A stretch of DNA of 20,888 bases from a virus: positions 1-20,888 of the IMG/VR virus record IMGVR_UViG_3300025112_000236; one strand, given 5' to 3'. This document shows positions 3,286 to 18,025 of the stretch, in pieces (positions within the stretch are counted from its first letter, which is position 1; every line of letters begins with the position of its first letter). Position numbers and translations under genes: made by a program. The notes under the pieces were generated by a model. That model searched no databases. It was not told where the DNA came from and saw only the letters and a program-made list of their open reading frames with translations.

Positions 3286-3740
3286 TAGTCTCGGCCCCCG
3301 CCTCTTCCAGCTTTTCTTGGTTTTAATCCTAGTTTACCATCTTTAATAGTAATATCGGATTCCATAACTTTTTTATATTTTGGAAATTTCTTTTTAGCAG
3401 CTACATGTCCACCAACTGTTCCAGCAATTGCGGCACTGGCACCACCAAAAACTTTTCTTTTAAGTTTTCTGTTTCTTGATTTTTGTTTAGAAACTAATTC
3501 ATCCCATTTATAAGAAATGTCTTTCATACTCTTAGAAGCTTCTCTTTTAGTTTTAGACATACTCTGTTTAAGTCTGTCTGAAGGTTTTTTGCCTCCTAAA
3601 CCTTTTCTAGTACCTTCATCAACAGCTGCTACTGCTTTATCTTGTATAGCTCTCTTTGTTGATACATTCTGTGCAGGTTTAACAGATCTAATTGCTCCAG
3701 CAACTTTCTTGCCTTTTGTTAATGCAGATAACCAACCCAT
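3285..3740 (-). CDS. basic 151-aa protein with a Gly/Ala-rich hydrophobic segment
   Basis: The start at 3740 follows AGGAATT, where the Shine-Dalgarno overlaps the stop of the previous gene. Residues 1-95 are rich in Lys, Ser and Ala and look disordered or helical. Residues about 98-113 (VFGGASAAIAGTVGGHVA) form a short Gly/Ala hydrophobic stretch with GxxxG-like spacing, long enough to insert partly in a membrane. The tail ends KPRKAGRGGGRD. Such a segment in a basic head-operon protein could belong to an ejected protein or a membrane-active lysis factor, but nothing diagnostic is present. Confidence 0.6.
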   Translation of the reverse strand: MGWLSALTKGKKVAGAIRSVKPAQNVSTKRAIQDKAVAAVDEGTRKGLGGKKPSDRLKQSMSKTKREASKSMKDISYKWDELVSKQKSRNRKLKRKVFGGASAAIAGTVGGHVAAKKKFPKYKKVMESDITIKDGKLGLKPRKAGRGGGRD

Positions 3741-14944: not shown

Positions 14945-15151
14945 ATGAAATATAAAGGAGACATAAAAACACATTTTGACATTAACAATCAGGGTACACT
15001 TGTTTTATTTGTTCCAAAAACTCATTGGGCAAAAGATTTTTGGGAAGAAAAGGTTGACCCAAATTGCCAGACTTTTGGAGATGGATATTGTGTAGAGCAT
15101 AGATATGCTCAAGATATAATGGACGGAATTCAAGATGAATTAGAAACCTAG
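14945..15151 (+). CDS. 68-aa protein on the rightward early transcript
   Basis: I chose the ATG at 14945. Longer in-frame versions would run back through the promoter. The -10 box ends six bases before this ATG, so the message is leaderless or nearly so, although GGAG lies two bases upstream. The protein is MKYKGDIKTHFDINNQG, then a hydrophobic strand TLVLFVPK, HWAKDFWEEKVDPNCQTFGD and an acidic helical end (EHRYAQDIMDGIQDELET). It is small and globular, with two Cys and no known family. It precedes the structured region. Confidence 0.55.
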   Translation: MKYKGDIKTHFDINNQGTLVLFVPKTHWAKDFWEEKVDPNCQTFGDGYCVEHRYAQDIMDGIQDELET

Positions 15152-15231
15152 TTCATACGATTGGGACAACTTCTGGTTGTATTGCACGTCACACCGACAT
15201 ATGTCCGTCTTCGTGCAAGGAACAGGCAGAA

Positions 15232-15297
15232 CTGATCCCTGATCCGATGGTATGTGCCAGATAATCTCCGTACGGGAGCCATCGGATCTGGGATCAG
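15232..15297. repeat. long hairpin A, first copy of the duplicated stem
   Basis: The arms at 15232-15250 and 15279-15297 (19 bases each) pair throughout except for one T-T mismatch at 15240/15289: CTGATCCC with GGGATCAG, then GATCCGATGG with CCATCGGATC. The 28-base loop contains a small CTCC/GGAG stem. No T-run follows, so it does not look like an intrinsic terminator. Confidence 0.75.
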
Positions 15298-15399
15298 ATG
15301 TTGTAACTGCCGGATTTAAACGGCTATAGTACAGGTCGCGTCGGATATATCTAAAGCTGATATTGGCCCGCGACTCAGTTGACCTGCACAGGACAACAA

Positions 15400-15477
15400 C
15401 TGATCCCTGATCCATATTATTAGTGGCCAGTGGATTCTAGATAAGCCCGGCTGTGAAGAGTATGGATCTGGGATCAG
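15400..15477. repeat. long hairpin B, second copy of the duplicated stem
   Basis: The arms at 15400-15416 and 15461-15477 pair with the same T-T mismatch in the same place (15408/15469): CTGATCCC with GGGATCAG, then GATCCATA with TATGGATC. The lower stem is identical to hairpin A and the upper stem differs on both sides while keeping pairing, so base pairing seems to be conserved. The 44-base loop shares a GTG(G)CCAG stretch with hairpin A. Confidence 0.75.
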
Positions 15478-15587
15478 GGACAGAACCCCGCGCGCCGGAG
15501 TAGTGGGCGGTCCTTGGTCATGAAGTTTACAGAATGAGAAAAAATCAGCGCTCTGCGCTCGAGCTATACATTGCGCCAGGTTTTGCT

Positions 15588-15615
15588 CATATGCATTCTT
15601 AAGTAAATGCATATG
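15588..15615. repeat. perfect 10-bp inverted repeat
   Basis: CATATGCATT (15588-15597) and AATGCATATG (15606-15615) flank the eight-base loop CTTAAGTA. It lies just before the purine-rich tract and the heptamer array. Confidence 0.7.
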
Positions 15616-15622
15616 GGTTAAT

Positions 15623-15736
15623 ATGAAAAAAGAAAAAGAAAGGGAAAAGCTTCAAGCAACAAGCTCCAAGCAGCAAGCCGCAAGCTTCAAGCTTGACATC
15701 CCAGGGATCTGGGACTATAAAGGATTTAGAAAGTAG
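15623..15736 (+). CDS. possible 37-aa leader peptide spanning the heptamer array
   Basis: An ORF starts with ATG at 15623 and stops with TAG at 15734-15736, seven bases before the Gp88-like start. It reads MKKEKEREKLQATSSKQQAA and then SFKLDIPGIWDYKGFRK. The heptamer array encodes the QATSSKQ/QAASFKL part, in the same frame relation as in the 59-aa ORF at 16345. No clear ribosome binding site precedes it, and the promoter at 15693-15721 lies inside it. It may be an upstream remnant or a leader rather than a working gene. Confidence 0.3.
   Translation: MKKEKEREKLQATSSKQQAASFKLDIPGIWDYKGFRK
15646..15694. repeat. heptanucleotide array 1 (CAAGCNN x7)
   Basis: Seven units of seven bases: AAAGCTT, CAAGCAA, CAAGCTC, CAAGCAG, CAAGCCG, CAAGCTT, CAAGCTT. 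The first five positions are constant apart from the first unit and the last two vary. The array runs straight into the -35 box of the promoter, whose TT comes from the last unit. Iterated short repeats next to inverted repeats resemble origin iterons. Confidence 0.8.
15693..15721 (+). promoter_or_regulatory. strong sigma70-type promoter with an operator-like spacer
   Basis: TTGACA at 15693-15698, 17-base spacer, TATAAA at 15716-15721. The spacer holds an inverted repeat, TCCCAG-GGAT-CTGGGA (15699-15714). It includes the ten-mer GGATCTGGGA also found in the 3' arms of hairpins A and B. Transcription would start about 15 bases before the ATG at 15743, leaving room for its AGGA ribosome binding site. 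Confidence 0.7.
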
Positions 15737-15742
15737 GAAATT

Positions 15743-16345
15743 ATGAAAACAGATGAAGCATTAAAAATTATAGGCGGCAGCCTGAGCAAGCCGTCGAAAA
15801 TGCCTGGTTGGTCAATTGGCCTCCCTGCCAAAGAATGCAAAACCGGCTCCAAGCTCCGGGCTGTGAAGGGCTCAACATGCTATGACTGTTACGCTCTTAA
15901 AGGTTGTTACGTATTTAAAGTTGTGCAAGATGCACAGTACAGGAGACTGGCAGCTGTGAAGGATGCCAGCTGGGTCCAGGCTATGGCTCACCTGATCAAC
16001 AGCAAGAAGCCGGACGTCTTCAGGTGGCATGACTCTGGAGATGTACAGGACCTTGAGCACTTAAACAAAATTTATGAAGTCTGCAGGCTGTCACCTTCTA
16101 AGCGTCACTGGTTACCGACCCGTGAAGCGTGGATCAAGGACCATCTCCACAGGGCCCCAGACAACCTCGTTATAAGATTCTCCATGCCGATGGTGGACCA
16201 GCCTGCTTCTGGCAGCTGGTCACACACCAGCACCGTGGTGACAGCCGGCGCGACGTGCCCCAGCGCTCTTCAGGGCAATGAATGCAGAGACTGTAGAAAT
16301 TGCTGGAATAAAGATATAAAAAATATATCATATGGACAGCACTGA
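15743..16345 (+). CDS. Gp88-like Cys-rich phage protein
   Basis: This 200-aa protein starts at 15743 behind AGGA. It matches the style of the 'gene product 88' family first named in mycobacteriophages: SKMPGWSIGLPAKECKTG (18-35), CYDCYALKGCY (46-56), FRWHDSGDVQDLEHL (93-107) and HWLPTREAW (122-130). Cys at 32, 46, 49 and 55 and a C-terminal group at 172, 181, 184 and 187 (TCPSALQGNECRDCRNCWNK) could hold a metal or iron-sulfur cluster. The family's reaction is not established as far as I know. The gene is visibly richer in G+C than its neighbours, as is the region upstream, suggesting separate ancestry. Its TGA overlaps the next ATG (TGATG). Family assignment is from memory of the motif pattern. 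Confidence 0.75.
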   Translation: MKTDEALKIIGGSLSKPSKMPGWSIGLPAKECKTGSKLRAVKGSTCYDCYALKGCYVFKVVQDAQYRRLAAVKDASWVQAMAHLINSKKPDVFRWHDSGDVQDLEHLNKIYEVCRLSPSKRHWLPTREAWIKDHLHRAPDNLVIRFSMPMVDQPASGSWSHTSTVVTAGATCPSALQGNECRDCRNCWNKDIKNISYGQH

Positions 16346-16524
16346 TGACCTGGTATCACCCGAAATACTACGCAGCCCTCCGGGCCGAAGCGAGAAGAAA
16401 GAGAAGAGAAGAAGCTCAAAGCTTCAAGCACCAAGCCACAAGCGATACTAAACCAGAACCTAGTTCAGGTTCTGAAGCCTCAAGCAGCAAGCACCAAGCT
16501 CCAAGCGGCAAGCATCAAGCTTAG
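16345..16524 (+). CDS. 59-aa basic protein with heptapeptide repeats
   Basis: The start ATG at 16345 overlaps the stop of the Gp88-like gene as TGATG, so translation is probably coupled. The protein begins MTWYHPKYYAALRAEARRKR and continues REEAQ, then becomes a repetitive tail: SFKHQATSD, EASSSKH, QAPSGKH, QA. The tail is the translation of the CAAGCNN heptamers, since three heptamers equal seven codons. The last 65 bases overlap the nuclease gene on the other strand. The N-terminal part looks like a real small protein. Whether the repeat tail matters is unknown. Confidence 0.55.
   Translation: MTWYHPKYYAALRAEARRKRREEAQSFKHQATSDTKPEPSSGSEASSSKHQAPSGKHQA
16411..16445. repeat. heptanucleotide array 2
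   Basis: Five consecutive seven-base units: GAAGCTC, AAAGCTT, CAAGCAC, CAAGCCA, CAAGCGA. They follow the CAAGCNN pattern of array 1, with the first two units degenerate at position one or two. The array is inside the 59-aa ORF. Confidence 0.7.
16454..16474. repeat. 8-bp inverted repeat between heptamer arrays
   Basis: CAGAACCT (16454-16461) and AGGTTCTG (16467-16474) flank a five-base loop AGTTC. It sits at the 3' end of the leftward nuclease gene and inside the rightward 59-aa ORF. No T-run follows in either direction, so it is at most a weak or factor-dependent terminator for the convergent transcripts. Confidence 0.55.
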
Positions 16525-16837
16525 ACAATCCACAAGCAACAAGCTCCGAGATTCTTGAACCAGGGATCAAGTAAAAAAGTTTCGAGGACCTTTGACCAAG
16601 GGCCTCGACTAGGATGAATGTATTGTTTGGATGTGATTTATGGAAGGCAATTTGATGAGGTGAGAACCTAACTTTGTTCCCTTTGGTCACCTTTAATTCT
16701 AGAGTGAAAAAGTGCCCAGAATTATTATAGCCCAATAGATCAGGAGTGCCCAGAGAGCTAAGGTTTTCAATCCGAATCCACGAAATTTCTTTGCATACTC
16801 GACGCAATTTTTTATATAATTTAGCTTCTGGACCCAT
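16460..16837 (-). CDS. VRR-NUC-type PD-(D/E)XK nuclease
   Basis: This 125-aa protein shows the VRR-NUC pattern: E4 in the first helix, WIRIENLSSLGTPDLLGY (20-37) with D33, FFTLELKVTKGNK (43-55) with E47 and K49, then SPHQIAFH (59-66) with Q62. These are the metal-binding and catalytic residues of the fold. Phage stand-alone VRR-NUC proteins may act on branched or replicating DNA, but the substrate here is not known. The ATG at 16837 has no ribosome binding site and lies 30 bases after the preceding stop, so reinitiation is likely. The C-terminal 27 residues (LVACGLSKLDAC, then RLELGACCLRLQNLN) are the antisense translation of heptamer array 3, an odd repeat-made tail outside the nuclease core. 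Confidence 0.8.
   Translation of the reverse strand: MGPEAKLYKKLRRVCKEISWIRIENLSSLGTPDLLGYNNSGHFFTLELKVTKGNKVRFSPHQIAFHKSHPNNTFILVEALGQRSSKLFYLIPGSRISELVACGLSKLDACRLELGACCLRLQNLN
16474..16546. repeat. heptanucleotide array 3
   Basis: Seven in-phase units run from 16474 to 16522: GAAGCCT, CAAGCAG, CAAGCAC, CAAGCTC, CAAGCGG, CAAGCAT, CAAGCTT. After a ten-base break two more follow at 16533-16546: CAAGCAA, CAAGCTC. The array is coding on both strands, forming the tail of the 59-aa ORF and the C-terminus of the nuclease. Confidence 0.8.
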
Positions 16838-17481: not shown

Positions 17482-18025
17482 GGGATTACCTAAAAGATTA
17501 ACAGATATGCAAAAAAGATTCGCTGAATTTATAGTATTTGGCGGACCAGATGGCCCACTCACTCAGACCGAAGCGGCAAAGCTAGCTGGCTATTCTGAAA
17601 CTAGAGCTAGGCAAGAAGGATCAGAATTAATGAACCCGAGAGTATCACCATTAGTGGCAGGATATATCGGCAAACTAAAAGAGGAGAGACTTAAGAAATT
17701 TGAAGTCAATTATGACGGACATGTGGCAGAACTCGCACGTATTAAAGAGCTTGCTTTAAAGAAAGGTTCTTTCTCTTCTGCAGTAAACGCAGAAACAAAT
17801 CGTGGAAAGGCAGCAGGATTGTACATAGACAGAAAAATAATAAAAACAGGTAAATTAGAAGACATGTCAGAAGAGGAGCTACAATTAAAAATGAAACAAA
17901 TACTAGCCGATTACGAACCTCTGTTAAATGCAAAGACAATTGAAGGCGAGACAATTGAGTTACCTAAATCTTCTGAATCTTCTTCACCCAATCACGAGGA
18001 ATCATCGTCCGATCCCCAAAAGTAA
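17480..18025 (+). CDS. terS: terminase small subunit
   Basis: This 181-aa protein fits the Terminase_2 type: LTDMQKRFAEFIVFGGPDGP (7-26), TQTEAAKLAGYSETRARQEG (28-47) with the helix-turn-helix, and ELMNPRVSPLVAGYIGKLKE (49-68). A central oligomerisation helix follows, and the tail from 160 is Ser/Glu-rich. TerS recognises phage DNA and delivers it to TerL. No Shine-Dalgarno precedes the ATG, and the promoter -10 lies six bases away. The gene is on the opposite strand from terL and about 5 kb distant. Its last 62 bases overlap the convergent 96-aa gene. Confidence 0.85.
   Translation: MGLPKRLTDMQKRFAEFIVFGGPDGPLTQTEAAKLAGYSETRARQEGSELMNPRVSPLVAGYIGKLKEERLKKFEVNYDGHVAELARIKELALKKGSFSSAVNAETNRGKAAGLYIDRKIIKTGKLEDMSEEELQLKMKQILADYEPLLNAKTIEGETIELPKSSESSSPNHEESSSDPQK

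Follow-up and report, generated by a model that had tools for sequence, protein, structure and literature searches.

Genes and repeats of the locus

The window, by which we mean the whole stretch of DNA analysed here, is a 20.9-kb virus record (20,888 nucleotides), probably a fragment, from a marine phage related to the pelagiphages, which are among the most abundant viruses. Its relatives include Pelagibacter phage HTVC027P (terL 71% identical, gp88 54.5%), and the SAR11 bacterium HTCC1062 is host to one cultured relative. The locus is built around gp88 (15743–16345, + strand), which codes for 200 amino acids. A sequence-only reading of this DNA had described a Gp88-like gene bracketed by repeat arrays, and the encoded protein does match the GP88 family (PF17338) with 87.7 bits at a Pfam cut-off of 24.4. 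ORF2 (MxxxHPKYY..., 16345–16524, + strand) overlaps the gp88 stop codon in the string TGATG. A convergent gene follows on the − strand (16460–16837). It had been taken for a VRR-NUC gene: its nuclease-like character is supported by PHROG matches of the Holliday-resolvase and endonuclease type (phrog_2165, 6.5e-12; Holliday junction resolvase, 1.8e-4), and the VRR-NUC label itself is not, since a Pfam scan returned no match, VRR-NUC included.

The predicted model of Gp88 has a compact fold (pLDDT 94) with conserved cysteines. The highest-ranking PDB matches of the model are for the most part radical-SAM enzymes (spore photoproduct lyase, QueE and viperin) with middling scores (Z ≤6.5), and neither a sequence search of the PDB nor Foldseek gave a significant match. 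On the basis of the model, Gp88 is possibly a small radical-SAM-like enzyme.

The repeat word at this locus is CAAGC followed by two free bases, in short runs with a period of seven (CAAGCNN). Array 1 (15646–15692, + strand) consists of seven in-phase heptads, the first of which reads AAAGC. Array 2 (16411–16443, + strand) has five heptads, starting with GAAGC and AAAGC, and array 3 (16474–16520, + strand) has seven, starting with GAAGC. A 3-base phase break separates array 3 from two extra heptads (CAAGCAACAAGC, 16533–16544, + strand), which are therefore out of phase by 3. The strict period claimed earlier for all three arrays thus holds for arrays 1 and 2, but not for the stretch 16474–16546 with its break before the last two units. 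With up to two mismatches, CAAGCNNCAAGCNNCAAGC matches the + strand of the window 15 times, as compared to a mean of 0.04 in shuffled sequences, none of which reached 15. A single 5-mer recurs in phase for at most 6 units in a row, compared to 2–3 in simulated sequences. The arrays are real and chance is excluded. They sit in a G+C island (15151–16600, 47–50% compared to 36% window-wide), and strong inverted repeats lie beside them as had been noted: leader hairpin 1 (15232–15297, + strand, z −5.1) pairs CTGATCCCTGATCC...GGATCTGGGATCAG with a T.T mismatch, and leader hairpin 2 (15400–15477, + strand, z −4.0) belongs to the same family. Another hairpin, CAGAACCTAGTTCAGGTTCTG, falls between arrays 2 and 3 (16454–16474, + strand) and is near-identical in HTVC027P.

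Array 1 is spanned by a mini-ORF of 37 codons (15623–15736, + strand) without a match in a PHROG search, arrays 2 and 3 encode the C-terminal tail of ORF2, and the called 3' end of the nuclease-like gene overlaps array 3. The peptide period noted earlier ([QE]AxSxxKH-like) is real. It is also trivial: because 7 equals 1 modulo 3, a CAAGCNN array reads as the same stop-free cyclic peptide, (QAxSxKx)n, in all three forward frames. The shared frame in two ORFs, which had been pointed out as a feature of the repeats, is therefore no evidence for translation, and the mini-ORF is probably a mere consequence of the stop-free array.

Arrays in related phages

A four-unit CAAGCNN scan of viral contigs gave at least 119 stretches. 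We assessed conservation on loci that were retrieved with the Gp88 protein alone, so that the presence of arrays was not a criterion. Among such loci with both flanks, arrays occur on both sides of the gene in 45 of 52, and none of the 52 lacks an array. Their position next to the GP88-family gene and the nuclease-like gene, which the earlier reading had proposed to test, is conserved. The array strand in the Gp88-retrieved loci is gene-sense in 196 cases and antisense in none. Arrays are conserved across hundreds of marine phage contigs; these counts, like the others from collections, are among the matches listed, with ORF families called automatically, and they overstate independence because all sites and loci are related by descent. 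The synteny is nearly fixed, with gp35/terL on the − strand (terL, 89 of 89), arrays and gp88 on the + strand, the nuclease-like gene on the − strand (261 of 261) and terS on the + strand (241 of 242). In all 261 loci that have both genes, the nuclease-like gene lies just downstream of gp88 on the opposite strand.

The association with gp88 has exceptions in both directions. That related genomes might carry the same genes without arrays had been named as a possible refutation; this situation is found in one distant clade of the HTVC033P type (arrays in 0 of 24 gp88 loci). Gp88 itself thus needs no arrays. In the 023Pt_psg01 clade, 12 of 45 loci are without CAAGC arrays, with partial replacement by GAGC-rich repeats, and there are none in HTVC023P and DSL-LC04, two related phages with complete genomes. 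Conversely, arrays also occur in loci lacking gp88, and wherever such a locus contains the nuclease gene (25 of 25), they are convergent with it. The idea that the arrays are tied to gp88 alone was rejected on these grounds. In part of the 023Pt_psg01 clade (11 loci), GAGC/CGAGC-rich repeats and G-rich stretches (GGGGGGAGGGTGGGCCC) stand at the array places. Gp88 also differs from its surroundings in composition: its GC3 is 0.56, as opposed to 0.22–0.29 in the structural and terminase genes of the window phage, and it stands more than 5 points above the surroundings in 50 of 51 long related loci. As a side observation, clades that bear arrays have a high GC3 in gp88, and the HTVC033P clade, which has no arrays, a low one (0.25). 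Among the papers searched, none dealt with CAAGC arrays in pelagiphages; as a sequence tag, the arrays can be used for finding the accessory locus in metagenomes.

What is conserved within the units was determined on 947 interior units downstream of gp88, with one core mismatch allowed in each. Positions 1–5 are CAAGC in 98–100% of cases, and positions 6 and 7 are nearly free (1.97 and 1.95 of 2 bits). This fixation of the core holds in every codon position (1, 2 and 3), synonymous sites included, and the combination of a fixed core and free bases indicates a constraint on nucleic acid instead of peptide. Adjacent phage units share both free bases in 3.2% of pairs, as compared to 7.5% under independence and to 92% in bacterial CAAGC arrays of the slippage type. 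Selection acts on a nucleic-acid site; slippage does not account for the pattern, nor does, in the main, a peptide.

Promoter junctions and a proposed regulator

A feature absent from the sequence-only reading is the junction of the upstream arrays with promoters. These arrays run directly into a sigma-70 promoter of the form CAAGC/TTGACA-N17-TATAAT. In the window, the last CAAGC of array 1 is flush with a −35 box (TTGACA, 15693–15698, + strand), which is followed after a 17-bp spacer by a −10 box (TATAAA, 15716–15721, + strand). Among 223 distinct upstream arrays, TTGAC comes immediately after 121 and within 10 nucleotides of 161, in contrast to 2 of 329 downstream arrays. Gathered irrespective of the gene behind them, array-TTGAC sites number 326 among the matches listed, and the gap is zero in 246. 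Next to the −35 box stand two to nine in-phase units (four or more in 235 of 326), and the array lies entirely upstream of this box in 299 and extends into the spacer in 27. A TATAAT-like box at exactly 17 bp is present at 250 of the 326 sites (77%) compared to 868 of 3333 (26%) for the remaining TTGAC sites of these loci. The 326 sites precede at most 46 clusters of predicted ORFs (138 sites precede gp88, 69 a gp34-like coiled coil, and many clusters are small), of which 23 are singletons, some perhaps no genes, and 23 have two or more members; a zero-gap site is present in 36 of the 46. Where small genes intervene between promoter and gp88, the array keeps to the promoter. At the promoter copies, the evidence favors DNA over RNA or peptide as the functional form.

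We consider it somewhat probable that the CAAGCNN arrays are cis-acting arrays of heptad binding sites for a cooperatively binding regulator of a variable accessory cluster. A putative protein, from phage or host, would contact the 5-bp core once every 7 bp and bind cooperatively along the array. The occupied upstream array would cover about −36 to −85, directly adjoining a strong sigma-70 promoter at its −35 box, and would determine when the corresponding transcription unit in the accessory cluster is active. As to the sign of control, the near-consensus promoter favors repression or timing, and the mostly upstream placement favors contact with sigma or RNA polymerase.

Tandem short operators without spacers are also known from the met boxes of MetJ, to which ribbon-helix-helix (RHH) dimers bind cooperatively; the MetJ units are 8-bp palindromes, unlike the phage heptads, and the phage has no MetJ. 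The closest working analogue is the omega repressor of pSM19035, whose operators (parS in this ParB/RHH system) are unspaced 7-bp repeats, seven to ten in a row, that overlap promoters and bind one dimer per heptad cooperatively, each heptad (WATCACW) combining five core bases with two looser ones (PMC9499535). The phage arrays are likewise unspaced 7-bp repeats, with at least four contiguous units at 235 of the 326 array promoters, and they too abut promoters. They differ in their core (CAAGC), in running in one orientation where omega heptads occur in both, in lying mostly upstream of the −35 box, and in belonging to a phage instead of a plasmid. Because the core differs and Pfam detected no RHH protein among the 20 HTVC027P proteins scanned, we do not claim membership in the omega family. 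The operators of Streptomyces SARP regulators are direct heptamer repeats that usually overlap the −35 box, and the heptamer of PimR, SanG and PolR (CGGCAAG) has CAAG in common with the phage core (PMC3367932). SARP sites come in two or three copies with 4-bp spacers and an 11-bp period, in contrast to the spacer-free period of seven in the phage, and no SARP-like protein was seen in the phage.

Independent data on expression come from HTVC027P. In this phage, CAAGC doublets are confined to the array locus save for one isolated pair, and the only genes with array promoters are gp33, the Gp88 homologue, and gp34. Infection RNA-seq placed precisely gp33 and gp34 in a separate temporal cluster that is high at 6–9 h, and gives no cis-element for this expression class (PMC12753301). 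The ORF2 homologue gp32, which follows immediately after gp33, is absent from the genes named for this cluster (PMC12753301). The arrays offer a concrete cis-element for exactly these two genes and make the question of their timing testable in lytic types such as HTVC027P. Since gp33 and gp34 are neighbors and another cause could apply, the agreement is supportive, not decisive. Pfam scans of 20 HTVC027P proteins found no clear regulator family, the one candidate being a weak zinc-ribbon match in a protein of 61 amino acids. No array-promoter unit was detected in 385 alphaproteobacterial genomes, a sample possibly without SAR11, and this result favors a phage-encoded origin for the predicted array-binding protein.

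The main gap in the heptad-operator reading is the downstream arrays, which are equally conserved, lie in a translated ORF or at a convergent gene end, and have no promoter. The same factor would bind there too, as a second loop anchor or as a cluster boundary. A more elaborate version is possible, if rather doubtful: in a phage-specific system, a single protein would recognize the heptads, in the form of a nucleoprotein array, at the accessory-locus promoters and once more at the 3' end of the locus, the stop-free 7-base repeat would allow an array within a coding sequence that is neither broken nor locked in frame by it, and the hypervariable leader hairpins would be a further part.

The main rival explanation, which we regard as unlikely, is an RNA element: a CAAGC array near the 3' end of every cluster transcript would recruit an RNA-binding protein with control over termination, processing or stability, with the next promoter starting right behind. 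One rule, by which each transcription unit has an array at its 3' end, would then cover upstream and downstream arrays together. Such a role agrees with the exclusive use of the sense strand, with the placement of arrays behind small ORFs and of the last ones where the cluster converges on the nuclease gene, and with structured hairpins and, in HTVC027P, an Rfam sRNA (RF02976) just upstream. Yet it leaves unexplained both the exact zero gap to the −35 box across 36 gene families and why the genes behind arrays form an expression class of their own, and the fold of the array RNA itself is not significant (z −0.9). A Rho rut site is also poorly matched by an invariant G and a free seventh base.

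We see little chance that the selected product is a peptide, namely a frame-independent, disordered (QAxSxKx)n tail. None of the three sense frames of an array contains a stop, and the free bases in ORF2 differ by codon phase (chi-square p 2e-26, inflated by shared descent), which gives Ser/Pro-rich tails. Against this, CAAGC is fixed even at synonymous third positions (CAA, NCA, AGC, AAG) while the free bases alter amino acids, and the promoter-side arrays do not require translation. Very improbable in our estimate are origin iterons, which the layout had first brought to mind, or a site for packaging between terL and terS: short repeats in tandem, next to hairpins and in a locus of fixed synteny between these two genes, would suit either, but the arrays accompany individual promoters of many genes, occur without gp88, are missing from the complete HTVC023P and DSL-LC04 genomes, and have no adjacent initiator gene by Pfam or PHROG. 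Junctions for the shuffling of accessory cassettes are even less probable. The many different genes behind direct repeats of one orientation, and the poor correlation in divergence between gp88 and its neighbors (rho 0.04–0.48), would be expected from such shuffling, but homology breakpoints show no enrichment at arrays (0.11 compared to 0.09 at random; 0.16 compared to 0.19) and none of 15 clean insertions has an array junction; with both tests negative, this reading was rejected. Neutral slippage, raised earlier as a potential refutation and suggested by the many slippage-like CAAGCNN arrays in bacterial genomes, is refuted for the phage arrays by the sharing of free bases between neighbors given above, besides the invariant core and the fixed place and strand, and has next to no probability.

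The bacterial CAAGCTN arrays, in Pseudomonas and others, have the CAAGC core and 7-base period of the phage arrays and differ in that their units are nearly identical and lie on both strands, in Pseudomonas often as inverted pairs that form long intergenic hairpins. Pseudomonas putida HAI-2 has 137 four-unit CAAGCNN matches genome-wide, compared to 0 for the reversed control, often in inverted pairs 40–100 bp apart. In view of these inverted hairpins, and of a weak 3'-sense bias in mixed bacteria, bacterial arrays were rejected as relatives of the phage arrays.

Hairpins, palindromes and other side elements

The leader hairpins of the window belong to a family with 120 distinct copies in related loci, of the form TGATCCCTG[AG]TCC, a hypervariable loop, and GGA[CT]CTGGGATCA. 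The stem of about 17 bp shows compensatory changes and G.U pairs, and the T.T mismatch is kept in 71 of 72. The family always lies on the array strand and precedes all arrays of its locus in 137 of 138 copies, and is a candidate for a structured RNA or a single-strand DNA site. On the window, an Rfam search gave only a sub-threshold match to mir-351, which we take as chance, and none in 20 other loci. In HTVC027P, the Flavobacterium-1 sRNA (RF02976) was matched with 90 bits at a cut-off of 59 (17753–17873, minus strand; 3477–3597 of the extracted locus). This element is directly upstream of the first array, at the place of the leader hairpins in relatives.

Perfect palindromes (TTAGAATGATTCTAA, GCGACAAATTGTCGC and ACAACCTGAGGTTGT) recur by arrays and TTGACA boxes in five loci and are perhaps operators of other regulators. 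Five loci also share a TTGACA-driven stretch behind the ORF2 array that contains no obvious long ORF and in some copies includes GGGC[AG]TTCTAGTGCACG; this stretch is possibly a small RNA.
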